Below, piece by piece: positions 2,441 through 61,920 of a DNA stretch of 64,000 bases. The DNA lies in assembly GCA_017483575.1 (NCBI GenBank), contig JAFUWF010000017.1:1-64000 (forward strand), read 5' to 3'. The first letter of the stretch is position 1, and every line of letters begins with the position of its first letter. Source of the DNA: Bacteroidales bacterium. Lineage in GTDB: Bacteria > Bacteroidota > Bacteroidia > Bacteroidales > P3. The translations under genes and the position numbers were made by a program. A model generated the notes under the pieces. It was not told where the DNA came from and did not search any database. It was given only the letters and a program-made list of their open reading frames with translations.

Positions 2441-2959
2441 ATGAAGAAATATCTGATACTCACGCTGACAACCATCGCTTTATGTGCCTGCACGGGCACC
2501 ACTACGCGCGAATTCCGCACGCCGGACAACACCGTTGCAGCCTCGTGCACCTACGAGGGTGCCGACAGTCTGCATGCACAATGGCAGTTCACAGACCCGA
2601 AGGTGAAGGACTGCGACTCGCTGCGCGTGGTGGAGATGGGTACCGACGGACACCCCGCAACCGTATGCTTCTACATGGGCGGGAAAGAACTCTGGCGCCA
2701 GTACTATTCCGACATGCAGTTGCGCAGCGAGGGCGTCACCGTGGGCGGCGTGAGAGAAGGCCGCTGGGTGTTCTTCTTCCCCAACGGTCTGCCGCAGTCG
2801 GAAGCCACCTTCGTGTCCGGCAAGGAAGAAGGGCCCTACAAGGTCTTCCGCGAGAACGGCGTGCCCTACTATGTGGGCCAGTACCACGAAGGACAGCGCA
2901 TCGGCACATGGGAAATCTACGCCGCCGACGGCACCCTGGAAACCACTCAAAGCTACTGA
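2441..2959 (+). CDS. Lipoprotein with MORN-like repeats
   Basis: The 172-residue product begins with a lipoprotein signal (MKKYLILTLTTIALCAC; lipobox Cys at about residue 17). Residues 100-165 hold three MORN-like units with the pattern G.W..F..NG..; GRWVFFFPNG, GPYKVFRENG and GTWEIYAADG are clear. Such repeats occur in secreted proteins annotated as YwqK-type antitoxins or MORN proteins, and no enzyme activity is implied. It has its own promoter and is followed by cca after 27 bp. The stop codon TGA is itself the start of a heptamer array (TGACCAC). Confidence 0.75.
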   Translation: MKKYLILTLTTIALCACTGTTTREFRTPDNTVAASCTYEGADSLHAQWQFTDPKVKDCDSLRVVEMGTDGHPATVCFYMGGKELWRQYYSDMQLRSEGVTVGGVREGRWVFFFPNGLPQSEATFVSGKEEGPYKVFRENGVPYYVGQYHEGQRIGTWEIYAADGTLETTQSY

Positions 2960-2986
2960 CCACTAACCACTGACCACTAACCACCA
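2957..2986. repeat. Heptamer array (TGACCAC/TAACCAC) covering a stop codon
   Basis: Four alternating 7-nt units fill the whole gap between the lipoprotein stop and the cca start. The first unit contains the stop codon. The same unit reappears, inverted, around 29.5 kb. Confidence 0.9.
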
Positions 2987-4468
2987 ATGATCGACCTCGG
3001 ACTTGACCTCTACCGCACCATCGGCCAATGTGCCGACCAGCTGGGCATCGACGCCTACGCTGTGGGCGGCGTCGTGCGCGACTTCTTCCTGCAGCGCCCC
3101 TGCACAGACATCGACGTGGTGTGCGTAGGCCGCGACGAGGGTGGCGAGGTGCATATCGGCATCGAGCTGGCGCACAAAGCCTCCGAGGCCCTGGGCGGCA
3201 GCAAAGTCTCCGTCTTCAAGAACTTCGGCACCGCCAGCTTCAAATACACACCCGGCCACGGTAGCGACAACGAAGGTCGTCAATATGAAATCGAGTTCGT
3301 CGGCGCCCGCCGCGAGAGCTATAGCCACGACAGCCGCAAACCCATCGTCGAGAACGGCACCCTCGAGGACGACCAGCGCCGCCGCGACTTCACCGTCAAC
3401 GCCCTAGCCGTCTGCCTCAACGCCGACCGCTACGGCGAGCTCATGGACCCCTTCGGCGGCATACAGGACCTCAACGAAGGCATCCTCCGCACACCCCTCG
3501 ACCCCGACATCACCTTCTCCGACGACCCCCTGCGCATGATGCGCGCCATACGCTTCGCCTCGCAACTCGGCTTCCACATTGCCGACGACACCTTCGAGGC
3601 TATCGCTCGCAACGCCTCACGCATAGAGATTGTCTCCGCCGAACGCATCACCGTGGAACTCAACAAAATCATGGCCTCGCCCAACCCCTCGCTGGGCCTC
3701 AAGCTGATGCAGAAATGCGGCCTAATGAAGCTCATCCTGCCCGAGATTGCCGCCCTCGCCGGTGTGGAAGTCGTCGACGGCCGCGGCCACAAAGACATCT
3801 TCTTCCACTCCATGCAGGTGCTGGACAACGTCGCTGCCAGCAGTGACAACCTGTGGCTGAGGTGGAGTGCGCTGCTGCACGACGTGGGCAAGCCCGGCGT
3901 GAAAAAATACGACGCCAAGCAGGGCTGGACCTTCCACGGCCACGAGGCTCGCGGCGCCCACATGGTCAAGCGCATCTTCAAGCGCCTGCGCCTGCCCCTG
4001 GGCGAAGAGGAACGCTACGTCGAGAAACTCGTCATGCTCCACATGCGCCCCATCATCCTCGCCGAGGACGTCGTCACCGACAGCGCCGTGCGCCGCCTCC
4101 TCTTCGAGGCTGGCGACGACATCGACGACCTCATGCTCCTCTGCAATGCCGACATCACCACCCGCAACGAGGAGAAACAGCGCCGCCACCGCGCCAACTT
4201 CGAGCTCGTCAAGCGCAAACTCGTCGAACTCGAGGAGCGCGACCGCATCCGCAACTTCCAGCCCCCCGTCTCCGGCGACGACATCATGCAGACCTTCGGC
4301 ATAGGCCCCTGCCACGAGATAGGCATCATCAAGGACGCCATCAAGGACGCCATCCTCGACGGCCAGATTCCCAACGACCGCGCCGCCGCCTGGCAGATGA
4401 TGCTCACCCTCGCCAACGGCCTCGGCCTGAAACCCGTCAGCGCTCCCACGGAGAGCACTCCTGAGTAG
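2987..4468 (+). CDS. cca: CCA tRNA nucleotidyltransferase with HD domain
   Basis: This 493-residue protein adds or repairs the 3' CCA of tRNAs. The nucleotidyltransferase head carries AVGGVVRD (residues 25-32) and the metal-binding DIDVV, followed by the RRDFTVNALA motif near residue 130. A tRNA-binding helical region follows, then an HD domain with LLHDVGKPG at about 300 and the second His in FHGHEARGA. The HD domain may trim 2',3'-phosphates. Length fits the Bacteroidota long form. It is separated from the upstream lipoprotein only by a heptamer array and could be co-transcribed with it. Confidence 0.95.
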   Translation: MIDLGLDLYRTIGQCADQLGIDAYAVGGVVRDFFLQRPCTDIDVVCVGRDEGGEVHIGIELAHKASEALGGSKVSVFKNFGTASFKYTPGHGSDNEGRQYEIEFVGARRESYSHDSRKPIVENGTLEDDQRRRDFTVNALAVCLNADRYGELMDPFGGIQDLNEGILRTPLDPDITFSDDPLRMMRAIRFASQLGFHIADDTFEAIARNASRIEIVSAERITVELNKIMASPNPSLGLKLMQKCGLMKLILPEIAALAGVEVVDGRGHKDIFFHSMQVLDNVAASSDNLWLRWSALLHDVGKPGVKKYDAKQGWTFHGHEARGAHMVKRIFKRLRLPLGEEERYVEKLVMLHMRPIILAEDVVTDSAVRRLLFEAGDDIDDLMLLCNADITTRNEEKQRRHRANFELVKRKLVELEERDRIRNFQPPVSGDDIMQTFGIGPCHEIGIIKDAIKDAILDGQIPNDRAAAWQMMLTLANGLGLKPVSAPTESTPE

Positions 4469-4481
4469 ACAAAAAGAAGAA

Positions 4482-4515
4482 TTTGGCCATATCAATATTA
4501 TTTCGTACTTTTGCA
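4482..4515 (+). promoter_or_regulatory. Promoter of crt
   Basis: A TTTGG box at 4482 and TACTTTTGCA at 4506-4515 give a near-consensus Bacteroidota promoter with about 20 bp between them, ending 40 bp before the crt ATG. Confidence 0.75.
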
Positions 4516-4555
4516 AAATCAAATAGCGAATTAAAAAACTAAAACGAAATATATC

Positions 4556-9408: not shown

Positions 9409-10647
<1,239 letters not shown>

Positions 10648-10668: not shown

Positions 10669-12675
10669 TTAATCGATTACACGGTGCAGGGCCATGCCTA
10701 TCTGGCGGCGGAGCTCGACGAGCTGTTTCTTCTCGTTGAGGAGGAGCATCAGGTCGTCGTCGTCCTTGACGGAGCCGAAACGGCGGGCGTTGTCGGCAAT
10801 GCGGGCGTTGACGCAGCCGAGCTTGAAGGAGAGGAGGGTCTCGGTGAGGTCGGCCTGGAGGTTGTCCTCGAGGGTGGAGACGAAGATCTGCTTGGCGCGC
10901 CAGGTGTCGCTGATGCGGAAGGTGTCGAGCATGAGCGAGATGGCGAAGGAGCGGAGGGCCTCGTCGTCGGCGGTGATGAAACGGGAAGCATCGGGGGCGT
11001 CGCCGCGGGCGAGGGTGTCGCAGTAGTAGGTATAGATTTTCTGGCAGAGGGGGTCGGAGAAGGAGAGCTCGTCGGCCTGGAGGTCGCTGACGATGACCTG
11101 GGCCACGGTGAAGGAGATCTCCTGCGTGGTGCCGTCGTCGGCAGGGACGGACTGGGTGAGGGTCTGGTCGCCGTAGTTGAGCAGGAGCTGGACGAGGTGG
11201 CGCTCGGCGGCAGGGGCCTGGACGAGCAGAGAGGGCTGGGGGGAAGGGGGAGTCGGAGGGGACGGAGGAGTCTGAGTATTCTGAATAATCTGAGTATTCT
11301 GAGTATTCTGAGGGTTCTGAGTATTCGGGTTCTCTTGGGGTTGCTGCTGTTCGTAGCTCTTGAGGCGGTTCTGGTTGATGGCCTTGGCCAACTCGTTGGT
11401 GAGGGCCTCTTCGGGGACGTTGAGGAGGTGGGCGCATTGGGAGATGTACTCAGTACGCTCGAGGAGGTCGGGGACCAGGGCGATGGTGTTGACGGTCTCC
11501 TTGACGAGTTCGGCCTTGCGGATGGGGTCGTCCTTGACATCGTCGAGGAGGACACGCGTCTTGAACATGACGAAGTTGTCCTCGTGGGTGGCCAGATAGT
11601 CCTGCAGCTGCGTGGAGCCATACTTCTGGGCATAGCTGTCGGGGTCCTCGCCGTCGGGGAAGAGGACAACGCGCACATGCATGCCCTCGGCGAAGAGGAG
11701 GTTGACGGCACGGAGGGCCGCCTTGATGCCGGCGGAGTCGCCGTCGTAGAGAACGGTGACGTTGGGAGTGTAGCGCTTGATGAGGCGTATCTGCTCGGTG
11801 GTGAGGGAGGTGCCGCAGGAGGCCACGGTGTTCTCGACACCGGACTGGTGCATGGAGATGACGTCGATGTTGCCTTCGACGAGGTAGCACTTGTTGGCCT
11901 TGGCGATGGCCGAGCGGGCCTGATAGAGGCCGTAGAGGGTGCGGCTCTTGTTGTAGATGTCGGAATCGGGAGAGTTGACGTACTTGGCGGCCTGCTTCTC
12001 GGAACTGAGGACACGGCCGGAGAAGCCCAGTACGCGGCCGGAGATGCTGTAGATGGGGAACATGACGCGGCCGCGGAAGCGGTCGTAGCTCTTGTGGGTG
12101 TCCTCCTTGAAGATGGTGAGACCGGTCTTCTCGAGGACGGCGTCGCTGTAGCCGCTGCGGCGGGCATGGTCGGTGAAGTTGCTCCACTCGTCGAGGCAAT
12201 AGCCGAGGCCGAAATTTTTTATCACCTCGTCGCTGAGGCCGCGGCTGTGGAAGTAGCTGAGGCCTACGGCGCGGCCCATCTCGTCGTTGTAGAGAAGGTC
12301 GGCGAAGTACTTCTGAGCAAACTCGGAGACATGGAAAAGGGCGTCGCGTTCATTCTGGCGTTCCTTCTGTTCCTCGGTCTGCTCCTCCTCGTGGATCTCG
12401 ATGTTGTACTTCTGTGCCAGGTAGCGGAGGGCTTCGGGATAGTTGAAGTGCTCGTGCTTCTTGAGGAAGGCCACCACATCGCCGGCCTCGCCGCAACCGA
12501 AGCATTTGAAGATGCCTTTGGAGGGCGAGACATAGAAGGAGGGCGTCTTCTCGTTGTGGAAGGGGCAACAGCCTATGTGGTTGGCTCCGCGCTTCTTGAG
12601 CGACACGAAGTCACCTATCACCTCCTCGATGCGGGAGGCGTCCATAATGCGTTGTATGGTCTCTTGGTCAATCAT
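10669..12675 (-). CDS. dnaG: DNA primase
   Basis: The 668-residue primase makes RNA primers at replication forks. I place the start at 12675 (MIDQETIQRIMDASRI), because a longer frame to 12735 overlaps the promoter and a terminator. The zinc finger shows CCPFHNEKTPSF and FKCFGCGEAGD; the TOPRIM core contains LVEGNIDVISMHQ and VLYDGDSAG. The C-terminal helicase-binding part follows a low-complexity linker (NTQNTQIIQNTQ) coded by a 9-nt array. The following genes on this strand are the sigma-54 activator, aroA and miaA. Confidence 0.95.
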   Translation of the reverse strand: MIDQETIQRIMDASRIEEVIGDFVSLKKRGANHIGCCPFHNEKTPSFYVSPSKGIFKCFGCGEAGDVVAFLKKHEHFNYPEALRYLAQKYNIEIHEEEQTEEQKERQNERDALFHVSEFAQKYFADLLYNDEMGRAVGLSYFHSRGLSDEVIKNFGLGYCLDEWSNFTDHARRSGYSDAVLEKTGLTIFKEDTHKSYDRFRGRVMFPIYSISGRVLGFSGRVLSSEKQAAKYVNSPDSDIYNKSRTLYGLYQARSAIAKANKCYLVEGNIDVISMHQSGVENTVASCGTSLTTEQIRLIKRYTPNVTVLYDGDSAGIKAALRAVNLLFAEGMHVRVVLFPDGEDPDSYAQKYGSTQLQDYLATHEDNFVMFKTRVLLDDVKDDPIRKAELVKETVNTIALVPDLLERTEYISQCAHLLNVPEEALTNELAKAINQNRLKSYEQQQPQENPNTQNPQNTQNTQIIQNTQTPPSPPTPPSPQPSLLVQAPAAERHLVQLLLNYGDQTLTQSVPADDGTTQEISFTVAQVIVSDLQADELSFSDPLCQKIYTYYCDTLARGDAPDASRFITADDEALRSFAISLMLDTFRISDTWRAKQIFVSTLEDNLQADLTETLLSFKLGCVNARIADNARRFGSVKDDDDLMLLLNEKKQLVELRRQIGMALHRVID
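11269..11328. repeat. 9-nt array (TCTGAGTAT) inside dnaG
   Basis: Six units of TCTGAGTAT with small changes code, on the minus strand, the NTQ tripeptide repeats between the catalytic and C-terminal parts of primase. Equivalent arrays lie in three other genes of the window. Confidence 0.9.
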
Positions 12676-12687
12676 GCGATTCGGGGT

Positions 12688-12696: not shown

Positions 12697-12722
12697 CGAC
12701 TTTTTTTTGATATAAATAATAT

Positions 12723-17769: not shown

Positions 17770-17771
17770 AT

Positions 17772-17801
17772 CTTTAATCTTTAACCATTAAACATAAAAC
17801 A
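17772..17801. repeat. Degenerate heptamer array (CTTTAAT) between rnfD and rnfG
   Basis: TCTTTAA, TCTTTAA, CCATTAA and ACATAAA follow in a row with a 7-nt period and fill the spacer. Confidence 0.6.
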
Positions 17802-18761
17802 TTACGCCGCGAAGCGCTGGGGTTTGCACCAGCGGTTGATGAGCGGGGTGACGGCGTTCATCAGCAGGATGGCGAAGCTCACGCCTTCGGGATAAGCGCC
17901 CCAGTTGCGGATGATGATGGTCAGCAGGCCACAGCCAAAGCCGAAGATGAGCTGGCCGCTCTTGGCCATGGGGGTGGTCACCATGTCGGTGGCCATGAAG
18001 CAGGCACCGAGCATGATACCGCCGGTGAGGATGGTCATCAGGGGATCCATGTAGGCCGTGGGGTCCACCAGCCACAGGATGCCGCTGAACACGAAGGCCG
18101 TGCCGATGAAGGCCACGGGGATATGCCAGGTGATGATCTTCTTCCACAGCAGATAGCAGGCACCGATGAGGATGGCGATGGCCGAAACCTCGCCCATCGA
18201 ACCGCCAATGTGGCCCAGGAAGGCATCCATGAAGGTCACACCCTCAGGCAGGGCACCCTCCTTGAAGGCTCCGAGGGGCGTGGCGCCGGTGGCCACGTCG
18301 AAGTCCATCGGGAACAGACCGCCCACCTGCGGCCAGGTGGTCATCTGAACCGGGAAGGAGATGAGCAGGAACACACGGCCCACCAGGGCGGGGTTGAAGG
18401 GGTTCTTGCCCAGGCCGCCGAAAGCCATCTTGCCGACACCCATGGCCACCAGGGCTCCGATGACGACTATCCACATCATGCTCACCGTGGCGGGCACGTT
18501 GAAGGCCAACAGCAGGCCGGTGACAACGGCGGAGCCGTCGCACACAGTGCTGGGCACCTTCATGATGTATTTCTCTATCAGCCACTGGAACAGCACGCAG
18601 CTGGCCACCGAGATGAGGCTCACCAGCAGGGCATTGAGGCCGAAATAGGCTATGGCCACCAGCAGCGCAGGCACCAGGGCCATATTGACGCGCCACATGA
18701 TTTTCTTTGTCGACTCGTCGCTGTGCACGTGGGGCGAGCCCGATATATTTAATAGATTCAT
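17802..18761 (-). CDS. rnfD: Rnf complex subunit D, membrane flavoprotein
   Basis: The 319-residue protein starts with SGSPHVHSDESTKKIMW, the conserved Rnf/Nqr N-terminus, and has about nine membrane segments. GNPFNPALVGRVF-like sequence (KNPFNPALVGRVFLLISFP) and TGATPLGAFKEG match the FMN site region, where Thr carries covalent FMN. It is one of the ion-transport subunits. Position between rnfC and rnfG fits the standard order. Confidence 0.95.
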   Translation of the reverse strand: MNLLNISGSPHVHSDESTKKIMWRVNMALVPALLVAIAYFGLNALLVSLISVASCVLFQWLIEKYIMKVPSTVCDGSAVVTGLLLAFNVPATVSMMWIVVIGALVAMGVGKMAFGGLGKNPFNPALVGRVFLLISFPVQMTTWPQVGGLFPMDFDVATGATPLGAFKEGALPEGVTFMDAFLGHIGGSMGEVSAIAILIGACYLLWKKIITWHIPVAFIGTAFVFSGILWLVDPTAYMDPLMTILTGGIMLGACFMATDMVTTPMAKSGQLIFGFGCGLLTIIIRNWGAYPEGVSFAILLMNAVTPLINRWCKPQRFAA

Positions 18762-22444: not shown

Positions 22445-22933
22445 ATGAAGAAAACAATTGGAGAGAACGGAAATCGGAAATGGTTGAAACTGTTATGCGT
22501 CAGCTTAATTATCAATTTCCATTTTTCAACTTTCAATTCTCTCCAGGCGCAGACGGGCCGCGTCACCGTGACGGGCGACGTGGCCGTGAACGAGATGGTG
22601 GCACGCCATGTGGAACTCAACAACCGCACCAAGACCATGCCGGGCTACCGTGTGCAGATAGCCTCCTTCTCCGGTATCAACTCCAAGAACAGCGCCTTCT
22701 CCCTGCGCGAACGCTTCATGACCGACTACCCCGCCGTCCAGGCCTACATCATCTACGACGAGCCCAACTTCAAGGTCAAAGTCGGCGACTTCCGTTCCCG
22801 CCTCGAAGCCTACGCTTTCCTACAGGAAATCAAAGAAGTATACAAAGGCTACATCATCAAAGACAACATCTACGCCGAGCCCCCCACCCTCGAAGACTAC
22901 GCCCCCGACGACCTGGAATCAGGCGAGGAATAG
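22445..22933 (+). CDS. Exported SPOR-domain protein
   Basis: The start at 22445 gives 162 residues with an N-terminal signal peptide; an upstream in-frame start at 22403 would only add array-coded residues. The hydrophobic part of the signal (IINFHFSTFNSLQAQ) is coded by a heptamer array. Residues 65-140 form a SPOR domain (GYRVQIASFSG to KVKVGDFRSRLEAYAFLQEI), a fold that binds denuded glycan strands in peptidoglycan. Its 3' end overlaps the convergent hemW by 15 bp. Confidence 0.85.
   Translation: MKKTIGENGNRKWLKLLCVSLIINFHFSTFNSLQAQTGRVTVTGDVAVNEMVARHVELNNRTKTMPGYRVQIASFSGINSKNSAFSLRERFMTDYPAVQAYIIYDEPNFKVKVGDFRSRLEAYAFLQEIKEVYKGYIIKDNIYAEPPTLEDYAPDDLESGEE
22505..22544. repeat. Heptamer array inside the SPOR-protein signal peptide
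   Basis: Units of TCAATTT/TTCAACT/TTCAATT type code residues of the signal peptide hydrophobic core. The complementary sequence forms the preceding spacer array at 22393-22440, so the two can pair. Confidence 0.85.
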
Positions 22934-24013
22934 GTCCGCGGCCATGCCGTCGGCGTAGAGGAGGCCTTCTGTTGTGGGTTCACACCTCATACCTCCGACT
23001 TCCGACCTCTCGACAATCCAACCGCAAGCGATATAGGGCTGTATCTTTCGATGCAGCTCTTCTTTGTATTTGTCGGGGACCATATCCAGCGGGATGCCAC
23101 GGGTGGTGCGGAGGGAGGTCATCAGGAGTTCGTTGAAGGCGTCGTCGTCGGTGAGGGTTTCTTCGTTCTCTACTCTCCACTCTCCGCTCTCCGCTCCCAT
23201 GGGGCCGTTCCATCTCCGGTGGAGGCCGTCGAAGCTGTGGGCTCCGGGGCCGAGGCCTAGGTAGGGCGTACGGTCCCAGTAGCGGCTGTTGTGGCGCGAA
23301 TGGCAGCCGGGGCGACAGTAGTTGGAGACCTCGTATTGAACGAAACCCTTGGCAATGAGCGTATCATGCAGGGCGAAGTACTGCCGCACCACCTCGTCGT
23401 CTCCGGGCAGCACCACCCTCCCCTGCTCCACCTGGCGGGCAAGCGCCGTGCCAGGTTCCACGGTGAGGGCATAGGCGGAGACATGGGTAACCAATTGAAA
23501 ATTGAAAAATGAAGATTGAAAATGAAGAGGAAGGCCATAGATGAAGTCGACGCTGATGTTGTGGAAGCCGGCGTCGTAGGCGTTCTGCACGGCGTCGAGG
23601 GCCTGTTGCGCTGTGTGGCGGCGGCCGATGAGGCGGAGCATCTCGTCGTCGAGGGTCTGGATGCCGATGCTGAGGCGGTTGACGAGGCCGATGTTACGGA
23701 GGCCCTGCAGGTAGTCCACCGTCAGGTCCTCGGGGTTGGCCTCCAGCGTCACCTCCTCCACCTGCGAGAGGTCGAAGCACTCGTGCAGGGCATCGACGAT
23801 GCGGGTCAACTGCTCCAGCGGCAGGATGCTCGGCGTGCCGCCGCCGAAGTAGACCGTGCGGATGGGGTGAGACTGCTCGCCACGGCGTTGCCGCATCTCC
23901 TCGATGAGATTGTCAACGTACAGGGTCTGCCGGCGGGACGCCGGCGCTCCATGGGAATAGAACGCGCAGTAGGTGCACTTGCGGTGGCAGAAGGGTACGT
24001 GAATGTATATCAT
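22919..24013 (-). CDS. hemW: Heme chaperone HemW (radical SAM, HemN-like)
   Basis: The 364-residue protein opens with the radical SAM motif CHRKCTYCAF and has GGGTPSIL, LEANPEDL, and VNRLSIGIQTLDD as expected in HemW. HemW binds heme and delivers it to respiratory proteins; it lacks the HemN-specific N-terminal residues. Three heptamer arrays are inserted in-frame (22984-23013, 23165-23198, 23492-23530). The last replaces the segment after YGLP, where the family normally has PGQT, and shortens it by about six residues. Whether the protein is fully active is therefore an open point. Its ATG overlaps the meaB stop. Confidence 0.9.
   Translation of the reverse strand: MIYIHVPFCHRKCTYCAFYSHGAPASRRQTLYVDNLIEEMRQRRGEQSHPIRTVYFGGGTPSILPLEQLTRIVDALHECFDLSQVEEVTLEANPEDLTVDYLQGLRNIGLVNRLSIGIQTLDDEMLRLIGRRHTAQQALDAVQNAYDAGFHNISVDFIYGLPLHFQSSFFNFQLVTHVSAYALTVEPGTALARQVEQGRVVLPGDDEVVRQYFALHDTLIAKGFVQYEVSNYCRPGCHSRHNSRYWDRTPYLGLGPGAHSFDGLHRRWNGPMGAESGEWRVENEETLTDDDAFNELLMTSLRTTRGIPLDMVPDKYKEELHRKIQPYIACGWIVERSEVGGMRCEPTTEGLLYADGMAADLFLA
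22984..23013. repeat. Heptamer array (CCTCCGA type) in the hemW C-terminal region
   Basis: CCTCATA, CCTCCGA, CTTCCGA and CCTCTCG follow one another. Read on the minus strand they code ERSEVGGMR near the HemW C-terminus. Confidence 0.8.
23165..23198. repeat. Heptamer array (CTCTCCA type) in hemW
   Basis: Five units of TCTCCAC/TCTCCGC type are read on the minus strand as GAESGEWRVENEE. The same unit lies in the sigma-54 activator and in the signal peptide of the gene at 56493-57170. Confidence 0.85.
23492..23530. repeat. Heptamer array (AATTGAA type) replacing a conserved hemW segment
   Basis: Five AATTGAA/AATGAAG units are read on the minus strand as LHFQSSFFNFQL, directly after the conserved YGLP of HemW. 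Confidence 0.88.
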
Positions 24014-25102: not shown

Positions 25103-25550
25103 AGGTATGAGGTAGGAGGTATGAGATTGGAGGTTGATGTCAGTCTTTGCAATATACTTTTTTTGTTGCAGCTGAAAGCAGTTTCACCAACTCCTCGCAA
25201 TCTCCATACAAACTATTAAACTGCTCTTCCGTGAGATAATCGGTGGCATTAAGCAATTCAAGCCAATACAATGATTCCTCCGCCTCTTTCAACGATATCG
25301 ACAACTTCATACCAAAATCCGGCATTGATTGCGCTCGTTTGGCCTCTCTAACATTGGCACCGATACTCGTACCGCTTCTCAACAACTGCTTGGACAATAC
25401 ATATTCATGCTTCTCCTCGCAAAGATACTTATAGAGTTTCACAACACGGACAGCGAAATTAAAACTCTTGCTCTGTATAATAGTCTCAGCCATATTATAA
25501 AAATAAATCAACTTCAAAACCTCATACCTTCGACCTCCTACCTCCTACCT
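25103..25550. mobile_element. Candidate cassette: S23 gene between inverted heptamer arrays
   Basis: The S23 gene is bordered at 25103-25138 by GGTATGA/GGTAGGA-type units and at 25517-25550 by the complementary CCTCATA/CCTCCTA units, so the transcript could fold with the gene in the loop. This resembles the layout of 23S rRNA intervening sequences, which carry S23 genes between complementary ends. No target-site duplication was identified. Mobility is inferred. Confidence 0.5.
25140..25493 (-). CDS. Four-helix-bundle protein of the S23 / 23S rRNA intervening-sequence family
   Basis: The start at 25493 (MAETIIQSKSF) gives 117 residues that match the S23 family: FNFAVRVVKLYKYLCEE, then LLRSGTSIGANVREAKRAQS in the second helix, KLSISLKEAEESLYWLELL in the third and ELVKLLSAATKKV in the fourth. 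The family was first found inside 23S rRNA intervening sequences, and relatives (bAvd) serve diversity-generating retroelements. Its biochemical role is unknown. There is no rRNA and no reverse transcriptase near it here; inverted heptamer arrays flank it. Confidence 0.88.
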   Translation of the reverse strand: MAETIIQSKSFNFAVRVVKLYKYLCEEKHEYVLSKQLLRSGTSIGANVREAKRAQSMPDFGMKLSISLKEAEESLYWLELLNATDYLTEEQFNSLYGDCEELVKLLSAATKKVYCKD

Positions 25551-25841: not shown

Positions 25842-27155
25842 TCAGAAGCGCGGAATATCGTGCGCCAGGCGTATGCTGACGCGCGTCGTGTTACTTATCG
25901 TAGAGGTCTCGTCAAATGTGGAATAAGTCGTCGAAATGCTGAAATATACCACATAGTGGCTTTGGCTGGCTGCACTGTGAAACGAATTGGAGGCATACCT
26001 GCCAGATTCGCCCATATAGGATGTTGAGCTTGCATCGTAGGACACTCCGGCGGCGGGCAGGAACACAGCCCCTGCAGCCTCCAGTATGGCCCACTGGGCA
26101 GCGGTATAGGTGTTCGGCATCGACTGGGAGCTAATCACCATGCTTATGCCGTCGGGCAGTTGCCAGTCGTCGGGCAGCAACACCAGCCCCGGAACACCCG
26201 CCACGGTAGCGAATGTGCGCAAACTGATTGCATTGGTACGTTCACGGAGAATGTACGTCCATTCGTCCTTCGACAGCACGCGCCAGAGACCTACCGCGTC
26301 GCCACCGTTGGAAATAGGACTTCGGGCAGCATCCCCGTTGCCCCAGATATTGCACATCATCAGGTCGATCCAGCCATCGTAGGTGGACGACTGATAGTTG
26401 TTGTTGAGCGACCCAAGGGCGTCGTACTGGTGCTCGGCGAAGCGATAGGTGGTGTCCGACCGCCGGAACTGCACATTGCCACAGGAGAAGGAGACCTGCT
26501 CCAGTCCGTTGATGGAGAAGCGGCCCGGCAGCATGCCCTCGATGGAGTCGGTCATCCACACCGTGTCGGCGGCGAAGGCCGTGGTGTCGTAGTGCACCTC
26601 CACGCTGTCGCGGATATATACCACCACGCTGTCGTGGACATGGACAACCACGCTGTCAACCACATGCACCACCGTGCTGTCCATCACATGCACCACCACG
26701 CTGTCGCGCACATGCACCGTGTCGCGGCCGCCGGCATTGGCGGCATAGAGGGCGTAGGGCACGGACATCAGCTGCTGTGTGGTGCTGAGGGTAAAGACGT
26801 TGCCGCCGTCGGGGTCAATCTGCGTCTTGAGGAACCAGGGGCCGTCGGCCCAGTCGATGGCCAGCTCCATGGTGGTGTTTACCAACGAGGTGCCCTGCCC
26901 CACGGTAATCGAAAAGAGGCCGGCGGCATCGGTGGTGGGATTGTGCAGCTCGGCATACCGCTCCGCGCCGAGGGCGTTGCCCTGCACCAGGCTGATGCGC
27001 ACAGCCACCGTGCGGTTGGCCACGGCATGGCCCTGCGCGTCGCGCACTGCGGCCTGGTAGGTGAAGCCCTGCGGGGCCTGGGCGTAAGCAGAATTGAAAA
27101 TTGAGAATTGAAAATTGAAAATTATTGCCAAAGCAATCAGAATCGTCTTCTTCAT
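25842..27155 (-). CDS. Secreted protein with FISUMP-like C-terminal region and DSVVVHV repeats
   Basis: The 437-residue protein has a signal peptide whose hydrophobic part (IIFNFQFSIFNS) is coded by a heptamer array. The N-terminal beta domain (PQGFTYQAAVRDAQGHAV to PYALYAANA) is one seen in Bacteroidota surface proteins. Residues 145-190 carry five octad repeats of the form DSVVVHVx. The C-terminal half resembles the FISUMP domain (LWRVLSKDEWTYIL, LLPDDWQLPDG). The start overlaps the stop of the upstream type IX protein gene (ATGA). No enzymatic function is evident; adhesion is plausible. Confidence 0.75.
   Translation of the reverse strand: MKKTILIALAIIFNFQFSIFNSAYAQAPQGFTYQAAVRDAQGHAVANRTVAVRISLVQGNALGAERYAELHNPTTDAAGLFSITVGQGTSLVNTTMELAIDWADGPWFLKTQIDPDGGNVFTLSTTQQLMSVPYALYAANAGGRDTVHVRDSVVVHVMDSTVVHVVDSVVVHVHDSVVVYIRDSVEVHYDTTAFAADTVWMTDSIEGMLPGRFSINGLEQVSFSCGNVQFRRSDTTYRFAEHQYDALGSLNNNYQSSTYDGWIDLMMCNIWGNGDAARSPISNGGDAVGLWRVLSKDEWTYILRERTNAISLRTFATVAGVPGLVLLPDDWQLPDGISMVISSQSMPNTYTAAQWAILEAAGAVFLPAAGVSYDASSTSYMGESGRYASNSFHSAASQSHYVVYFSISTTYSTFDETSTISNTTRVSIRLAHDIPRF
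27090..27124. repeat. Heptamer array forming part of a signal peptide
   Basis: Five GAATTGA/AAATTGA units are read on the minus strand as IFNFQFSIFNS, the hydrophobic core of the signal peptide of the FISUMP-like protein. Confidence 0.92.
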
Positions 27156-29448: not shown

Positions 29449-29457
29449 ATTGATTAA

Positions 29458-29549
29458 GTGGCCAGTGGTCAGTGGTCAGTGGTCAGTTTTGCTGACGCTC
29501 CCACAAACTGCGCAAGCAACCAACCACTGACCACTGACCACTAACAACT
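29458..29549. repeat. Facing heptamer arrays (AGTGGTC) in the ridA-bcd spacer
   Basis: About four AGTGGTC units (29458-29487) face about four GACCACT-type units (29517-29549) across a 30-nt loop that contains CTGCGCAAGC. The arms can form a long hairpin in the transcript. Confidence 0.92.
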
Positions 29550-29558
29550 AAAAAAAAC

Positions 29559-30698: not shown

Positions 30699-30709
30699 AA
30701 ATTAACGTT

Positions 30710-30797
30710 TATGGGTTAGAGGTTATAGGTTATAGACGCTGCCGCACCACACCATCGCGCCAGCCCTCCATAACCCATAACCCATAACCAATAACCT
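30710..30797. repeat. Facing heptamer arrays (GGTTATA) in the bcd-etfB spacer
   Basis: Three to four GGGTTAG/AGGTTAT units (30710-30734) face four ATAACCC-type units (30769-30797) across a 34-nt loop. The right array ends 9 bp before the etfB ATG. Confidence 0.92.
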
Positions 30798-30806
30798 TTC
30801 AAGAAA

Positions 30807-33639: not shown

Positions 33640-33678
33640 TCTTTAAACTTTAAACAAGAAACTTTAAACTTTAAGAAC
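33640..33678. repeat. Heptamer array (CTTTAAA) in the HIRAN leader
   Basis: CTTTAAA, CTTTAAA, CAAGAAA, CTTTAAA and CTTTAAG follow in a row, ending next to the ATG at 33680. Confidence 0.9.
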
Positions 33679-46178: not shown

Positions 46179-46210
46179 TTTCAATTTTCAATTCTCAATT
46201 TTCAATTTCC
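46179..46210. repeat. Heptamer array (TCAATTT) between patB and the TonB-like gene
   Basis: TCAATTT, TCAATTC, TCAATTT and TCAATTT follow the patB stop directly and end at the next ATG. Confidence 0.92.
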
Positions 46211-47027: not shown

Positions 47028-49031
47028 ATGAAACGACTGGTTCTGATAGCATTTATTCTGACCATGGGCACCCTTTCGGCGCAGGAATATGTCACCCTGA
47101 AGGGGCGCATCACCGACAGCCGCACGCGCAAGGCGGTGCCCTACGCCGCCGTGCTGCTACAGGGCACCAATACGGGCACGCAGAGCAACGACGCGGGCGA
47201 GTGGAAATTGAAAATTGAGAATGGAAAATTGAAAAATAATGACATGGTCCTCTTCTCGGCCATGGGCTATAAGCGGTTGGCCGTCAGCGTAGAGCAGCTG
47301 ATAAAGAAGGGCGACGTGCGCCTCGAGCCCCACGCCATGGAGCTGAAGGAGGTGCAGGTGACGGGCTTCGTCACACCGCAGGCCATCATCGCCGAGGCCG
47401 TGCGCCGAATACCGGAGAACTACCACACCGACACCACCATCGACACCTGGTTCCTGCGCGACTACCGCCTGCTCGACGGCAACCTCTACCTCTTCGACGA
47501 GAGCGTGATGGACGTGCTGCGCTACGGCTACGCCCACGACAGCACCAAGCGGGGCTACTCCTTCAGCGACCGCCAGCGCGAGATGGACAACAACTACAAG
47601 TCCGTCCTGCGCCACCGCCTACTGGTGCTCGACAGCCTCAGCGTGCGCCTCGCCGCCGGCGACATGCCCAAGGCCATGGCCGACATGGCCTTCAGCGACA
47701 ACAATATCTTCAGCGAGTCCATGCTCACACCGCAAGCCAATTTCAGCACCGCCGAGCGCTTTGTGAAAAGGAACAAGTACGACCCCATCCGGGAATACAC
47801 CGACGACGAGGGCGTGGCCTACTGGGTGCTGCGAGGCTACGGCCGCACAAGCAACCCTCATTTCAAGGCCCACTACACGCTGCACATCCGGCAGGACAAC
47901 TTCGCCGTGGTGGACTACCTATTCGACAGCGACAGCGGCCGCTACGACTACCCCGAGGGCATCTGGTGGAACCAGCCCTGGACTGCAAGACACAGCCACC
48001 GGAACATAGACCAGGAGCACTACGAGCTGCGCAACGGCAAGTACAGCCTGACGCACTCGCTGCGCTACAGCGACATCACCTACTACTGCCACCAGGCCTA
48101 CGGCTACGAGCTGGCCAACGCGGAGCAGCGCGTCGTCACCTGCCGCGAGATGCTGCTCACCGACCAGCGTCCGGGCGACACCTCCTTCCTGCGCCAGCGC
48201 AACGTGCTGGGCTACAAGAACCAAGGCTACGCCGACGCCATGGGCCAGAGCAGCTACGACGAGGACTTCTGGGGCCAGTACAACACCCTGCCGCTGGACA
48301 GCGCCATCCGCGAGAAGCTGGAGGCCTTCTATCCAACCAATCGGAATAATCAGAATAATCAGATTACTCAGAATACTCAGAGTACTCAGAGCACTCCGAA
48401 TCATCCGATGATTCTCAACCCAGCCGCCAAGCAGGACTCCCTCGTCGCCCTGCGGGCCGCCAAGGACACCACGCCGGCCACCATCGCCCCCCTGCCCCGC
48501 TGGGTCTTCTACCGCTACGGAGGCATCGGCGGCAACCGCCTCATCGGCGACGACGGCAAGAGCCGCCGCGGCATCAGCCAGCAGCTGGGCCTCGGCACAC
48601 GCCTCCACCTCGGCGGGCGCTTCCACCTCTACGCCGACCTGCAGTACGCCTGGATGCACACCAAGGCCGACTTCGGCCACCTCAACACCCACAGCCTCAC
48701 CGTGCCCCTGCGCCTGAGCTTCGACATCGCCAAGCCCTCGCCCAACTTCGACAGCCGCCTCTACGTGGCCGTCGGCGGCTGGGGCCGCTACACCTTCTTC
48801 GGCCACGTGGGCAACGACACCGACATCTTGGACCGCCGGCACACCGCCGGCACACCGCAAACCGGCATCATCGACCACTGGGACTACGGCTGGAGCTGGA
48901 CCATCGGCGCGGAGTTCTTCCGCACCATCTCGCTGGAGTGGACCTCCTATCGCAGCCTGCGCACCTCGATGCTCGACGGCAGCGAGCTCTTCCGCCATAA
49001 CGGCGCCTTCACGCTGAGCATCAATTTCTAA
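47028..49031 (+). CDS. Outer-membrane protein with carboxypeptidase-regulatory-like N-terminal domain
   Basis: The 667-residue protein has a signal peptide (ending TLSAQ), then a CarboxypepD-reg-like beta domain with KGRITDSRTRKAVPYAAVLL, and later strands that suggest an outer-membrane barrel (LGLGTRLHLGGRFHLYADLQ). It resembles DUF5686-type proteins but is shorter, so the family is not certain. A heptamer array inserts WKLKIENGKLKN within the regulatory domain, and a 9-nt array gives a NNQITQNTQSTQST linker before the C-terminal third. It is 10 bp after the TonB-like gene. Confidence 0.75.
   Translation: MKRLVLIAFILTMGTLSAQEYVTLKGRITDSRTRKAVPYAAVLLQGTNTGTQSNDAGEWKLKIENGKLKNNDMVLFSAMGYKRLAVSVEQLIKKGDVRLEPHAMELKEVQVTGFVTPQAIIAEAVRRIPENYHTDTTIDTWFLRDYRLLDGNLYLFDESVMDVLRYGYAHDSTKRGYSFSDRQREMDNNYKSVLRHRLLVLDSLSVRLAAGDMPKAMADMAFSDNNIFSESMLTPQANFSTAERFVKRNKYDPIREYTDDEGVAYWVLRGYGRTSNPHFKAHYTLHIRQDNFAVVDYLFDSDSGRYDYPEGIWWNQPWTARHSHRNIDQEHYELRNGKYSLTHSLRYSDITYYCHQAYGYELANAEQRVVTCREMLLTDQRPGDTSFLRQRNVLGYKNQGYADAMGQSSYDEDFWGQYNTLPLDSAIREKLEAFYPTNRNNQNNQITQNTQSTQSTPNHPMILNPAAKQDSLVALRAAKDTTPATIAPLPRWVFYRYGGIGGNRLIGDDGKSRRGISQQLGLGTRLHLGGRFHLYADLQYAWMHTKADFGHLNTHSLTVPLRLSFDIAKPSPNFDSRLYVAVGGWGRYTFFGHVGNDTDILDRRHTAGTPQTGIIDHWDYGWSWTIGAEFFRTISLEWTSYRSLRTSMLDGSELFRHNGAFTLSINF
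47202..47240. repeat. Heptamer array (AAATTGA) in the outer-membrane protein gene
   Basis: GAAATTG, AAAATTG, AGAATGG, AAAATTG and AAAAATA units are read in-frame as WKLKIENGKLKN. The same DNA in the other orientation forms signal peptides at 22.5 and 27.1 kb. Confidence 0.9.
48340..48410. repeat. 9-nt array (AGAATACTC) in the outer-membrane protein gene
   Basis: Seven units of GGAATAATC/AGAATACTC/AGAGTACTC type are read as NNQ, ITQ, NTQ, STQ repeats. Confidence 0.92.
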
Positions 49032-50176
49032 AGAAGACTGAGTATGGGCCTCACGGCCTCCTGCGGCGAGAAAGGCTGCAGGGCTACACGGCGTTGGGCC
49101 AGATGCTCCGCCGTGAACTCCTGCGCCATGAGGCTGTCCAACGCCGCGCGCATCGCCTCGGGGCTGTCGGCCACGGTACATAGTCCTTCCAGTCCCGTAC
49201 CGGCCACCATGGCGCTGTTCACCAGGCAGAAACGTCCGGCATAGAGCGAGTTCAGCAGCTTCAACTTGAGGCCTGTAGCCTGCCCCGTCACCATCACGCA
49301 CACATGCGCCTCCTCCACCAGCCGTTGCATCGTCCCGTCGTCAGGGCTGCCAACCAACTCCACATTCGGCATCGCATCTATCCTTTCGCGCAGCCACGCC
49401 GGCGGCTCGTTGCCAGCCACCACCAACCGGTGCTCCGACCCCTTGAAAACCTTGTCCAGCAGATACTCCACCGCATGATAGTTCTCCGCCACCGCCAGGT
49501 TCCCATGATAAAGCGCGAAGCGCTCTCCTACCTCCGACCTCCTACCTCCTACCTCATACCTCCTACCTCCTACCTCCCCAAAGGGGTGCATCCCCGTGGA
49601 CAGCAGCACATTCCGGCACCCCATGCGGACCAGCTCCTTCTGGTCGGCAGGCGAAATGGCCAGCACCGCCGAGGCACGGCGGAGGATAGGTTCATAGCGA
49701 CGTATCTTCCTAGCTTCAAGCTTCAAGTAGAGACGTTTCCCCAACCGCCTCTCCGCCGCTGCCAGCTGTCCGTAGTAGTCGGCCTCGATATTATGCGCGC
49801 GCACCATCACCATGCGGTCGCGCGTCAGCGCCTCGTCCTCCAGCAGCAGGCAGCAATGCAGCCCCTCAAGGAGGATGGGATAGCGGTCCTGCATCAACCT
49901 CGCCGTCAACTCCCTGCTGTGCCGCGAGCTAACGATGAACGGCCGTCGGTCGAGCATCCGCAAAGGCGACATATCGCGGCGGTAGTATCGCACCTCCTCG
50001 CACCAGCGCTCCAGCTCCGGCGCCGGACCACGGCCATAGTCGAAGCAGTGCAGATGCACGCGCACACCGGCCTCCGCCAACGCCTTGAGGCGATAGAACA
50101 CGTCGATCACCCCGCCGTAGTTCGCCGGCAGCGGCACGTTGAACGTCACAATATGCAGATGCCCATCATTTCTCAT
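49028..50176 (-). CDS. Glycosyltransferase (GT4-like)
   Basis: The 382-residue protein has the GT-B pattern: an N-terminal Rossmann-like half (HIVTFNVPLPANYGGVIDV, RAHNIEADYYGQL) and a C-terminal donor half (YHGNLAVAENYHAVEYLLD, LVVAGNEPPAWL, VELVGSPDDGTMQRLVEEAHV, TGLKLKLLNSLYAGRF). The acceptor is unknown. Between the halves, a heptamer array inserts two copies of the heptad EVGGRRY/EVGGRRS. Its ATG is itself inside another array at 50168-50200. It converges with the outer-membrane protein gene, overlapping by 4 bp. Confidence 0.82.
   Translation of the reverse strand: MRNDGHLHIVTFNVPLPANYGGVIDVFYRLKALAEAGVRVHLHCFDYGRGPAPELERWCEEVRYYRRDMSPLRMLDRRPFIVSSRHSRELTARLMQDRYPILLEGLHCCLLLEDEALTRDRMVMVRAHNIEADYYGQLAAAERRLGKRLYLKLEARKIRRYEPILRRASAVLAISPADQKELVRMGCRNVLLSTGMHPFGEVGGRRYEVGGRRSEVGERFALYHGNLAVAENYHAVEYLLDKVFKGSEHRLVVAGNEPPAWLRERIDAMPNVELVGSPDDGTMQRLVEEAHVCVMVTGQATGLKLKLLNSLYAGRFCLVNSAMVAGTGLEGLCTVADSPEAMRAALDSLMAQEFTAEHLAQRRVALQPFSPQEAVRPILSLL
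49525..49577. repeat. Heptamer array (GGAGGTA) in the glycosyltransferase gene
   Basis: About seven units are read on the minus strand as EVGGRRYEVGGRRSEVG. The units at the two positions where the frame would give TAG are TAT and TCG variants. Confidence 0.92.
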
Positions 50177-50200
50177 TTCTCATTTTTCATTTCTCATTTT
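50168..50200. repeat. Heptamer array (AATGAGA) providing a start codon
   Basis: On the minus strand AATGAGA, AATGAAA and AATGAGA precede AATGATG. The start codon of the glycosyltransferase is the ATG of the last AATGAGA unit. Confidence 0.85.
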
Positions 50201-52870: not shown

Positions 52871-52901
52871 ATTGTTTTGTTTTCTTTGTTTTCTTTTTTC
52901 C

Positions 52902-55520: not shown

Positions 55521-55585
55521 CGAAAAAAACACAAAAAGCAAAAGCCCTCGCCAAAAATTATTTTCCCACCCGCCTTTTCCTGCCT

Positions 55586-55648
55586 CCATCCTCCCCCAAA
55601 CCCCTCAAAAAACCGCCCCCATCCTCCCCCAAACCCCTCAAAAAAACG
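55586..55648. repeat. 33-nt tandem repeat (two copies) in a pyrimidine-rich spacer
   Basis: CCATCCTCCCCCAAACCCCT begins both copies at 55586 and 55619. The remaining 55521-55868 spacer is C/T-rich with short ACC-rich units; no gene is seen in it. Confidence 0.85.
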
Positions 55649-55868
55649 TCACCGAACCACCTCAAAACCAACAACTAAACTGGACCAACTCCTACCTATC
55701 TCCTTATCTTCCCCTAATTATTTCCAGACAATCTCCTACCCGTATGGGATATGATAAGGTTTTTATAGGGAAATGTTAAAAATTTAAAAAAAATAATATG
55801 CAACACAATATTTTGGCTGTTGGTGCGTACTTAGGATGGATTATTAACCTTGAAAAATTTTTTAGCGT

Positions 55869-57859: not shown

Positions 57860-57909
57860 AGTGAATTGAAAATTGAGAATTGAAAATTGAGAATTGGAAA
57901 TTGAAATTA
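57860..57909. repeat. Heptamer array (GAATTGA) between tatA and tatC, over the tatA stop
   Basis: Six to seven GAATTGA/AAATTGA/GAATTGG units fill the spacer and reach the tatA stop codon at 57907-57909. Confidence 0.92.
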
Positions 57910-60445: not shown

Positions 60446-60499
60446 AGTTCGTTGGGGTTTTTGTTGGGATTTATAGATTTTTATTATTTATTCCGTTTT

Positions 60500-61882
60500 T
60501 CAGATTTCCACGTGGCGTTCGCGGCCTTCGACATAGATGGCCGTCAGGGGGCGTGCGGGGCAGTAGTACTCGCAGGCGCCGCAGCCGAGGCAGCGGCTCT
60601 CGTTGACGGCGGGCTTGCCGTCCACCATGCTGATGGCCGCCGAGGGGCAGTGGCGTGCGCAGACGCCGCAGGAGATGCAGTTGTCGGGCAGCACCACGGC
60701 ATGGCCGATGGAGATGGCGGTCTTCTGCTCGTGGGCGATGGGCTGGATGGCGCCGGCGGGGCAGACCTCGCTGCAGCGGGTGCAGGCCGTGCGGCAGTAG
60801 CCCTGGTCGAAGGCCATGTAGGGCTGCATGAGGGTGGCGAGGCTGGTGCTGGGGCGCAGCACGTGTTCGGGGCACTTGCTAACGCAGAGCTGGCAGGCGG
60901 TGCAGCGGCTCTCGAAGTTCTTGAGGCTGATGGAGCCTGCGGGCTTGAGGGGCATCTGGCGGTCGGGGACCTGCTTGTCCTCGATGACGGCCAGGCCGCC
61001 GTCGAGTTTCTGGCCCTGGGCGTGGAGGGTGGTGGCGGCGCCGACGGCGGCGGTGGTGGCCAGGAATTTTCTTCTAGAGGGGTCGGTCGGAGTGGTCGGA
61101 GTACTCTGAGTATTCTGATTATTCCGAGTATTCTGAGTATTCAGATTACTCAGAGATATGGCGCCCACCTTGCAGTTGGCCAGGCAGGCCCAGCAGTCGA
61201 CGCAGCGGGAGTGGTCGACGGTCTTGTTGTCGATATTGATACACATGGCTTTGCAGCCCTTTTCGCACTTGCGGCAGGAGACGCACTTGTCGGCGTCGAT
61301 CTTGATGCCGAAGAGGCGGAACTTGCTGACGAGGCCCAGCAGCGACCCCACGGGGCAGATGGTGTTGCACCACAGGCGGCCGTACATGAAGCTGCACAGG
61401 CCGATGACCACGAGGGTGACGATGGCGACGACCAGCGGCAGGCCGGAGGAATGGATGTTGGTCACCATGCGGGCGTAGGCGCTGTAGGGGGCGATGAGCA
61501 CGGCGATGCCATTGAGGCCAAAAACCATCAGCAGGACGAAGAGCACCAAGATGGTGTAGCGCAGCCAGTTGGCGGGCTTGCGATAGCGGAAGGGGCGCTT
61601 CTTGCCGAAGATGAGCTTGTGGAACCAGGTGAAGATGTCCTGGAAGATGCCCATGGGGCAGACGATGGAACAGTAGAGACGGCCGATGAGGAAGGTCACC
61701 ACGAGGATGGCGACGACCATCACCACGTTGAGCGCCAAAACGGCAGGGAGGAACTGCATCTTGGGCATCCATCCCAGGTAGTGGCGCAGCACGGCATCGT
61801 CGGTAGTGTCCAGCAGCAACGCCGTGATGCAGAGGAGCACCAGCGCGGCGAGGCAAATTCGTACGTATTTGAAGTATTTCAT
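60500..61882 (-). CDS. Membrane polyferredoxin (NapH-like) fused to a Tat-signal ferredoxin part
   Basis: The 460-residue protein starts with four or five membrane helices carrying the NapH/NosR-type motifs LYCSIVCPMG and LWCNTICPVG. Two ferredoxin motifs follow (CVSCRKCEKGCK, CVDCWACLANCK). Then comes an array-coded NTQNTRNNQNTQSTP linker and, directly after, a twin-arginine motif SRRKFLATTAAVG as in a Tat signal. The last 170 residues carry more [4Fe-4S] motifs (CTACQLCVSKCP, CTRCSEVCP, CISCGVCARHCP, CLGCGACEYYCP). It looks like two genes joined. An electron path to the reductase downstream is plausible. Confidence 0.88.
   Translation of the reverse strand: MKYFKYVRICLAALVLLCITALLLDTTDDAVLRHYLGWMPKMQFLPAVLALNVVMVVAILVVTFLIGRLYCSIVCPMGIFQDIFTWFHKLIFGKKRPFRYRKPANWLRYTILVLFVLLMVFGLNGIAVLIAPYSAYARMVTNIHSSGLPLVVAIVTLVVIGLCSFMYGRLWCNTICPVGSLLGLVSKFRLFGIKIDADKCVSCRKCEKGCKAMCINIDNKTVDHSRCVDCWACLANCKVGAISLSNLNTQNTRNNQNTQSTPTTPTDPSRRKFLATTAAVGAATTLHAQGQKLDGGLAVIEDKQVPDRQMPLKPAGSISLKNFESRCTACQLCVSKCPEHVLRPSTSLATLMQPYMAFDQGYCRTACTRCSEVCPAGAIQPIAHEQKTAISIGHAVVLPDNCISCGVCARHCPSAAISMVDGKPAVNESRCLGCGACEYYCPARPLTAIYVEGRERHVEI
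61083..61155. repeat. 9-nt array joining two parts of the polyferredoxin
   Basis: About seven GAGTATTCT/GAGTACTCT units are read on the minus strand as NTQ-type repeats, right before the SRRKFL motif. Confidence 0.92.
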
Positions 61883-61889
61883 ATTCGTC

Positions 61890-61920
61890 GTTCTTAATTC
61901 TTCATTCTTATTTCTTCTTC
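61890..61920. repeat. Heptamer array (TTCTTAA) over the LuxR-gene stop
   Basis: TTCTTAA, TTCTTCA, TTCTTAT and TTCTTCT span the spacer between the regulator and the polyferredoxin gene. The regulator stop at 61908-61910 lies inside, giving the KKK C-terminus. Confidence 0.75.

Follow-up and report, generated by a model that had tools for sequence, protein, structure and literature searches.

The 64,000-nt stretch of a rumen Bacteroidales genome analyzed here (contig JAFUWF010000017.1; hereafter the window) carries numerous short tandem arrays with a unit of seven nucleotides, and the explanation towards which we lean is that these arrays are the arms of diversified miniature, non-autonomous palindromic repeats that in one genus of rumen Bacteroidales are copied to places across the genome and retained where the host tolerates them. 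The window belongs to contig C26 in a draft genome of 1.96 Mb that is 78% complete, and its EtfB is closest to those of uncultured, mostly rumen, Bacteroidales (80 loci kept), with Candidatus Colimorpha and bacterium P3 also among them. Counts at genome scale come from a 453-kb sample of the same genome, and those for relatives from samples of 29-80 kb from each of ten genomes (only 29 kb in the case of G020); all counts of arrays in genes versus spacers depend on a simple purpose-written gene caller.

The ten arrays that had been named in a preliminary description of the window, made from its letters, were all present as period-7 matches of Tandem Repeats Finder (some also as period 14), with starts at 2955, 20170, 22394, 25103, 29457, 30709, 33641, 46179, 50166 and 57864, and period 7 accounted for 28 of the 93 rows that this program returned for the window. 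By a loose measure (21-nt windows with at least 17 matches) the window scored 21 at period 7, 11 at period 14, five at period 21 and four at period 18, with 0-3 at every other period from 4 to 30. A stricter score, tested against dinucleotide-preserving shuffles, gave 16 period-7 arrays in the window and none in each of 20 shuffles, and so the outcome of no excess over shuffled sequence did not occur. In the 453-kb sample the loose measure gave 96 period-7 windows, compared with a mean of 0.0 over five block shuffles, and smaller excesses at periods 9 (24), 10 (13) and 11 (29); the strict score gave 83 period-7 arrays, divided between called genes (52) and spacers or gene edges (31). The statement that arrays fill entire spacers was thus accurate for some of them, and not for those inside called genes (6/16 in the window and the 52 just given), and a spacer-only phenomenon was rejected. 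In other families of the order, 20 stretches totaling 323 kb yielded three strict arrays, even though four of these stretches had been picked for a listed pattern hit, a bias that runs against the claimed contrast. An assembly artefact was judged unlikely because arrays are found at the same site of a HemW-like gene in five other named records.

The lengths of the arrays were narrowly distributed: among 120 arrays pooled from 11 genomes the median was 31 nt, 76 measured 28-34 nt and five were at least 42 nt. The arrays are therefore narrow-sized (~30 nt, 4-5 units) and not open-ended slippage tracts. The families in the window's genome can be written as AATT plus GAR, AGTG plus GAG or GTC, AGGT plus NNG and GGTT plus ATN, a 4+3 layout that serves as description only (cores were searched as exact words), and the same few families were found again at unrelated loci in the 453 kb. 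The modal AATT form, (AATTGAR)4AATT, has five cores in 32 nt and made up 24 of the 38 strand-hits. When the 14 pairs of neighbors lying no more than 150 nt apart in the 453-kb sample were compared, 12 were inverted and one was direct. Inverted pairs took in 24 of the 83 strict arrays, and their loops were 10-62 nt long, several with a GCTGACGC-like stretch.

The spacers between bcd and etfB and between etfB and etfA were compared as two operon slots across the window and loci L009-L078. Of 66 loci, 10 had a bcd-etfB spacer of 17-24 nt and the others one of 37-299 nt (L036, L057, L070, L075 and L077 were omitted for want of a readable spacer), and the etfB-etfA spacer was 8-23 nt in 28 of 70 loci and 45-203 nt in the remainder (L057 omitted). 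The filled spacers held 14 labeled array families with periods of 7, 8, 9 or 10, the labels being hand-written patterns under which 13/66 bcd-etfB and 5/70 etfB-etfA spacers were classed as "other". On a tree built from the flanking genes of 70 loci (65 for bcd-etfB and 69 for etfB-etfA; L027 was labeled but is off the tree), and restricted to spacers with a named family, we counted 30 family changes at bcd-etfB versus a shuffled mean of 31.2 (n = 43) and 25 at etfB-etfA versus 26.8 (n = 37). The occupant family at both slots therefore has no more phylogenetic signal than shuffled labels. The same was seen for period (16 changes versus a shuffled mean of 16.6, and 17 versus 16.8), and for this reason inheritance of the period along lineages, which we had considered, was withdrawn; what differs is the genome samples. 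Occupancy of the etfB-etfA slot, by contrast, was conserved, with eight changes versus a shuffled mean of 21.4 (minimum 16 in 50 shuffles), whereas that of bcd-etfB carried little signal (7 versus 8.7). An earlier inference that the bcd-etfB slot is kept while its occupants swap (44 versus 7 changes) was also withdrawn, given that shuffles yield 46.4 and 8.7, and conservation of the slot with swapping of its occupants holds for etfB-etfA occupancy only.

Within a genome the two slots resembled each other. A family was common to both in 11 of 30 loci versus 3.0 expected, a value reached in none of 20,000 shuffles, and a period was common to both in 15/25 versus 8.2 expected (reached in 102 of 20,000 shuffles). 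Most of the filled spacers of at least 45 nt (n = 93) fold as hairpins: the median folding z-score was -2.72, with z < -2 in 66 and z above 0 in four, and the last 15 nt were A-rich (62% A versus 33% inside), figures that cover filled spacers alone. The bcd-etfB spacer of L065 (299 nt) is unusually long and non-periodic, and may be partly coding.

The dominant period differed among the sampled relatives, being 7 in G001 and G006, 7 and 8 in G104 (where some stretches were picked at pattern hits, which raises its array rate), 8 in G020, and 11 in G016, G018 and G029; few strict arrays were present in the samples of G003, G005 and G021. Strict period-7 arrays numbered 0-1 in the samples of six genomes (G003, G005, G016, G018, G020 and G029). 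The AATTGAR pattern was present in 76 of the 99 genomes of the genus and the 8-nt pattern AATGCGT in 58, the window's genome having none of the latter, and 9-nt arrays occupy many orthologous slots. The proposed constancy of the period consequently survives mostly within the window's genome, where there is also the excess at 9, 10 and 11, and fails in relatives; a fixed period of 7 as the essence of the phenomenon was rejected, as 8 or 11 predominates in sampled relatives. An element with 8-nt units and a 31-nt core, GATATGATGCGAGYCGTATAAACTTATCAAC, was found in 58 copies in G104, 24 in G021, 11 in G027 and one each in G002 and G006, with none in G000, G001, G020 or the window's genome. Several copies are nested inside outer inverted 8-nt arrays. 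The copy numbers and the nesting point to recent copying, and the 58 copies in one relative represent a species-specific burst. One copy, at L169:16740-16830, interrupts an AATTGAG array, and 15 more lie in L216, L217, L218, L220 and L221. That the element represents the ends of an insertion sequence was rejected, as the listed positions of the 31-nt core had no regular pair spacing (judged by eye).

The preliminary description had inferred that a DNA-level process creates and spreads periodic sequence. Such a process is supported by the recurrence of the same unit families at unrelated loci, by orthologous slots with other arrays or none, by the absence of phylogenetic signal of the family at the two slots, by family sharing within a genome and by the burst of the 8-nt-unit element. 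Arrays conserved at the same places were not the outcome in the relatives compared. What requires revision is that the period is not 7 group-wide and that the arrays are not confined to spacers.

Arrays with 11-nt units were observed in stretches L155-L158 of G029, and one of them forms an almost perfect inverted pair whose loop is a few nucleotides long. The genome of the window also has a palindrome with 11-nt units, CATATAGTATA, that is similar to a miniature inverted-repeat transposable element and has recurring flanks resembling ttcgacccttct and aagaacagtcga. It forms seven inverted pairs; among the six inspected, the loop measured 47 nt in five and 25 nt in the other. Copies are at:
L098:14399-14500
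L101:4739-4840
L102:12442-12542
L103:14619-14720
L105:19791-19892
L106:12823-12902

The features of the window are as follows, with the strand in brackets (a dot where none is given):
2955..2984 (.), ACTRACC period-7 array at a gene junction, near the next ATG; Tandem Repeats Finder and strict score
9599..9683 (.), GTGGAGA / TCTCCRC inverted pair in the sigma-54 activator open reading frame (ORF) 9409-10647 (-), between the AAA lid and helix-turn-helix domains
11254..11321 (.), period-9 array in the DnaG-like primase gene 10669-12735 (-)
17770..17802 (.), ATCTTTA/TTAAACA period-7 array; loose and strict period scores
20170..20202 (+), AATTAAG array with AATT core; Tandem Repeats Finder and strict score
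22394..22432 (+), AATTGAG array with six AATT cores, in a spacer
22919..24013 (-), HemW-like gene (Radical_SAM, E 5e-31), holding the arrays at 23167..23196 and 23493..23523
23167..23196 (.), GCGGAGA/GTGGAGA array at site 2 of the HemW-like radical SAM gene, in frame
23493..23523 (.), AATTGAA array, in frame in the HemW-like gene, site 1, in the segment preceding the conserved HVSAY
25103..25134 (+), AGGTATG/AGGTAGG array; Tandem Repeats Finder
25519..25550 (.), ACCTCCT array near tRNA-Met
27092..27123 (+), (AATTGAR)4AATT, 32 nt, antisense, near the N terminus of called gene 25842-27155 (-), which has no Pfam hit
28298..28322 (.), ACCTCCG array, in frame in the AnmK-like gene 27732-28805 (-)
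29457..29551 (.), AGTGGTC / ACCACTG inverted pair with a 35-nt loop, in the spacer upstream of an acyl-CoA dehydrogenase-like gene
30699..30806 (+), GGTTATA / CCATAAC hairpin filling the bcd-etfB operon spacer; fold z -6.67
33641..33674 (.), CTTTAAA array; Tandem Repeats Finder
46179..46208 (-), AATTGAA-family array adjoining an ATG
47205..47235 (+), AAATTGA array, sense, inside called gene 47028-49031 (+)
49525..49577 (.), ACCTCCT array with seven AGGT cores, in the glycosyltransferase-like gene 49028-50176 (-)
50166..50199 (.), AATGAGA-family array; Tandem Repeats Finder and strict score
57106..57135 (+), AGTGGAG array within ORFs that overlap and have no support from Pfam
57864..57908 (+), AATTGAA array with six AATT cores, in a spacer
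61085..61154 (.), period-9 array in the Fer4 gene 60500-61882 (-)
61883..61917 (.), TTCTTAA array; Tandem Repeats Finder

Residence in genes was examined by domain content and by length. Seven of the nine array-bearing ORFs of the window that were tested have Pfam domains, including the sigma-54 activator and the DnaG-like primase, and two have none. The HemW-like gene was compared across 14 of 30 orthologous loci (the 16 reverse-strand loci were left out): site 1 measured 54-63 nt in 13 of the 14, with or without an array origin, and 90 nt in the remaining locus, while site 2 measured 39 nt in nine loci, 60 nt (degenerate 7-mer sequence) in three, 75 nt in one and 102 nt (a 9-mer array) in one. 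At the AnmK-like site of the window the array was absent from 22 of 24 orthologs, 20 of these 22 being shorter by 12-18 nt, and the two other orthologs did have an array, which belonged to the same family in one and to a different family in the other. For the 77 of 144 arrays that had orthologs on both flanks (six of these lay between the limits set for coding and noncoding sites), length differences between orthologs were divisible by three in 82 of 83 coding comparisons (10 sites, about six distinct slots; the comparisons are not mutually independent) versus 597 of 1,903 noncoding comparisons (61 sites). As intact genes keep frame by nature, the former value shows mainly that the arrays are in real reading frames. 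The peptides coded by the arrays vary with family and frame, and NTQ-rich stretches are coded by period-9 arrays in the DnaG-like primase (10669-12735), the Fer4 protein (60500-61882) and a CarboxypepD_reg protein (47028-49031).

Families differed in how often they lay in genes in the 453 kb. The numbers were 14/21 for AATTGAR (11 antisense, three sense), 11/12 for AGTGGAN (five sense, six antisense) and 18/22 for AGGTNNG (seven sense, 11 antisense), and 0/9 for GGTTATN, 0/4 for AGTGGTY and 0/4 for AAATGAG. AATTGAR has TGA on its forward strand and no stop codon on the reverse, and its mostly antisense orientation in genes therefore fits a stop-codon filter. AGTGGAG and AGGTCGG are free of stops. 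GGTTATN carries a reverse-strand TAA in every variant and a forward TAG in the ATA variant only; with the ATT and ATG variants open on the forward strand, stops do not fully account for its being missing from genes. We had earlier stated that both strands of GGTTATN contain stops and that AGGTNNG is free of them; this was wrong for several variants and was withdrawn, and the filter now rests on AATTGAR alone.

Candidate movers were sought as Pfam families. Y1_Tnp was matched in 63 of the 99 genomes of the genus (three matches in the window's genome) and RVT_1 in 41, with no match in the window's draft genome. Among the 37 genomes with at least 40 AATTGAR hits, which are pattern positions and often several per array, 26 had Y1_Tnp, versus 37 of the 62 others. 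The 11 array-rich drafts without Y1_Tnp (G006, G008, G009, G017, G019, G061, G075, G079, G086, G088 and G118) likewise had no RVT_1 match in nine cases (the exceptions being G019 and G079). Since these are drafts, 64-96% complete, a single absence can be a gap and is weak evidence; nonetheless, the absence of both families from several array-rich drafts suggests that neither a Y1 transposase nor a reverse transcriptase is needed for the arrays. As such, a Y1 transposase as the necessary mover and a reverse transcriptase as the necessary maker were not supported.

In the reading that we favor, the palindromic repeats would work as follows. A hairpin cassette would consist of two inverted arms around a short loop, each arm being a tandem array within a narrow length range (about 30 nt, 4-5 units), and single arms would be half-elements or remnants. 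Existing copies would serve as the source of new ones at unrelated places in the genome, possibly by template switching or annealing at the replication fork, with an intermediate, single-stranded or hairpin, that host replication or repair would handle, and slippage in unit steps may homogenize the units within an arm. Copies would persist where the host tolerates them, namely in operon spacers, between the stop codon and the A-rich start region, and in permissive protein loops in open frame. A slot tolerant of one cassette could later be taken by others, which would give the different families and periods at orthologous slots. In favor of this reading are the excess of arrays, their narrow lengths, the recurring families, the inverted pairing, the hairpin folding, the turnover of families at slots, the family sharing within a genome, the presence in open reading frames, the orientation of AATTGAR and the burst, all of which were observed, whereas the enzymology is inferred.

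Several observations weigh against copying of palindromic repeats within the genome. Under the strict rule, 59 of the 83 arrays are outside inverted pairs, and what is common to the loops is just a loose GC-rich motif. The two etf slots are less than 1 kb apart, so that the sharing of families between them fits either copying within a genome or joint transfer. At several coding sites, non-periodic orthologs have exactly the array-bearing length, which looks like overwriting of a segment and not insertion. AGTGGTY and AAATGAG are open on one strand in most variants, yet neither was found in genes. Comparison of L074 with L075, L042 with L045 and G021 with G027 yielded no clean pair of an empty and a filled site marked by a target-site signature, and the search for a mover gave no copying enzyme among the Y1_Tnp and RVT_1 families tested. 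Finally, recombination between species contributes, because in five species pairs the spacers were 94-100% identical (mean 97.9%) and on average exceeded the flanks, whose mean identity was 90-93%.

Other explanations were weighed against the same data. The arrays might be cis-acting RNA hairpins selected between operon genes for translation or mRNA stability, the sequence being free if the fold is kept. The folding of 66/93 filled spacers at z < -2 with only four above 0, their A-rich last 15 nt and the conserved occupancy of etfB-etfA, where family is not conserved, are in its favor; but most arrays are in genes and most are unpaired, the slot is empty in some close relatives, occupancy at bcd-etfB has little signal, and selection of this kind is silent on the source of new families, and we find it doubtful as the explanation. 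At the gathering score the sole Rfam match in the window was one tRNA, with no match to an array. A further proposal, which we consider unlikely, is a process that writes DNA in patches of ~30 nt at a period set by the species (7, 8 or 11, perhaps 9), overwriting the sequence in place, conserved-length segments of housekeeping-like genes included, without the tested transposase or reverse transcriptase families. It is rather unlikely that exchange of cassettes is mostly recombination between species: the five spacer pairs noted above (all of them at or over 90% identity), and the linkage of the two slots, by which shared families could be co-transferred, would agree with it, but just five such pairs were found, and it cannot account for new sites or for the 58 near-identical copies in one genome.

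The two remaining explanations are improbable. Elements moved in trans by a Y1 transposase (REP-associated tyrosine transposase, RAYT), in the manner of the hairpin-forming doublets of repetitive extragenic palindromic (REP) sequences known as REPINs, would be expected to leave single and inverted-pair copies, hairpins and species-specific families as seen here, and Y1_Tnp is present in most genomes of the genus; against this are the array-rich genomes without it, the location of most arrays in genes and the composition of the arm as a multi-unit array. Still a little less credible, in our judgment, is that each array arises from its own neighborhood when replication slips locally, preferably in steps of 7 nt, as proposed by Mrazek and colleagues (2007). 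Among repeats with long units, heptanucleotides are reported to be over-represented and to be the most abundant in the majority of genomes (Mrazek 2007, as cited in PMC4679880 and PMC4692102), and different units share one period in the window's genome. Slippage would not lead one to expect, however, few unit families at unrelated loci, a narrow length peak, inverted neighbors, AT-rich AATTGAA arrays within the genes of a genome with 57% GC, or a dominant period of 8 or 11 in sampled relatives.

Copying of miniature palindromic repeats, the reading that we favor, has partial counterparts among known systems. The STRR sequences of cyanobacteria are heptanucleotide repeats. TAACTGA heptamers have been reported in Beggiatoaceae, cyanobacteria and five Bacteroidetes (PMC4679880), which qualifies the earlier remark that no matching description is known for this group, and G-rich heptamers are known in Xanthomonas and Nostoc (PMC4692102). 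The TAACTGA repeats are similarly heptanucleotide arrays, those of the main genome being mostly in spacers or near start codons, with species-dependent positions; they differ in having one favored unit, one indirect versus 169 direct repeats in the main genome and few related heptamers (PMC4679880), whereas the present arrays comprise several unit families, form inverted pairs, have different periods in sister species and in many cases lie in genes, so that tandem heptamers are present without being mainly in spacers. REPINs (Bertels and Rainey 2011, PMC3116915) are alike in being short dispersed families of singlets and inverted doublets that are capable of forming hairpins and for which non-autonomous mobility was proposed, and the 12 inverted pairs and one direct pair among 14 neighbors and the hairpin folding of spacers agree with this. 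In contrast to the extragenic REPINs, 52/83 arrays are within called genes (with Pfam domains in 7/9 tested ORFs), arms are tandem arrays of 4-5 units, unit length varies by species and Y1 is missing from some array-rich drafts.

The palindromic elements of Rickettsia (RPEs) also come in several families and occupy unrelated genes without breaking the frame (PMC10969869), as the arrays do, judging from the 82/83 length differences in multiples of three, with the non-independence given above. RPEs are, however, about 150 bp long with a conserved peptide, and here the arms are ~30 nt (median array 31 nt) with periods of 7-11, the peptides vary and the family at a site varies by species. The tandem repeats of Borg elements are fast-evolving and occur both in spacers and in frame in genes, but were concluded to be locus-unique and locally derived (PMC9879509), whereas here the same units of narrow size are found at many loci and in many species. 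A literature search of titles and abstract openings, with subscription journals mostly outside its reach, found no arrays of this kind described for rumen Bacteroidales. If our reading is correct, the arrays would form a class of very small dispersed repeats linking simple-sequence repeats with palindromes of the REPIN or RPE type, marked by narrow periodic arms, a dominant period that depends on the sampled relative, and slots in operons and protein loops whose occupants are without phylogenetic memory. The dozens of species with the same operon would then be a natural test bed for the birth and copying of short periodic DNA, and for the tolerance of proteins to random peptide patches.

Two further repeats of the window have longer units. 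At 52901-52974 there is a period-10/20 array, CCTAGGAAAT, whose palindromic core resembles the 10-nt family of the L029 etfB-etfA spacer, and a period-33 repeat, GCCCCCATCCTCCCCCAAACCCCTCAAAAAACC, is located at 55582-55669.

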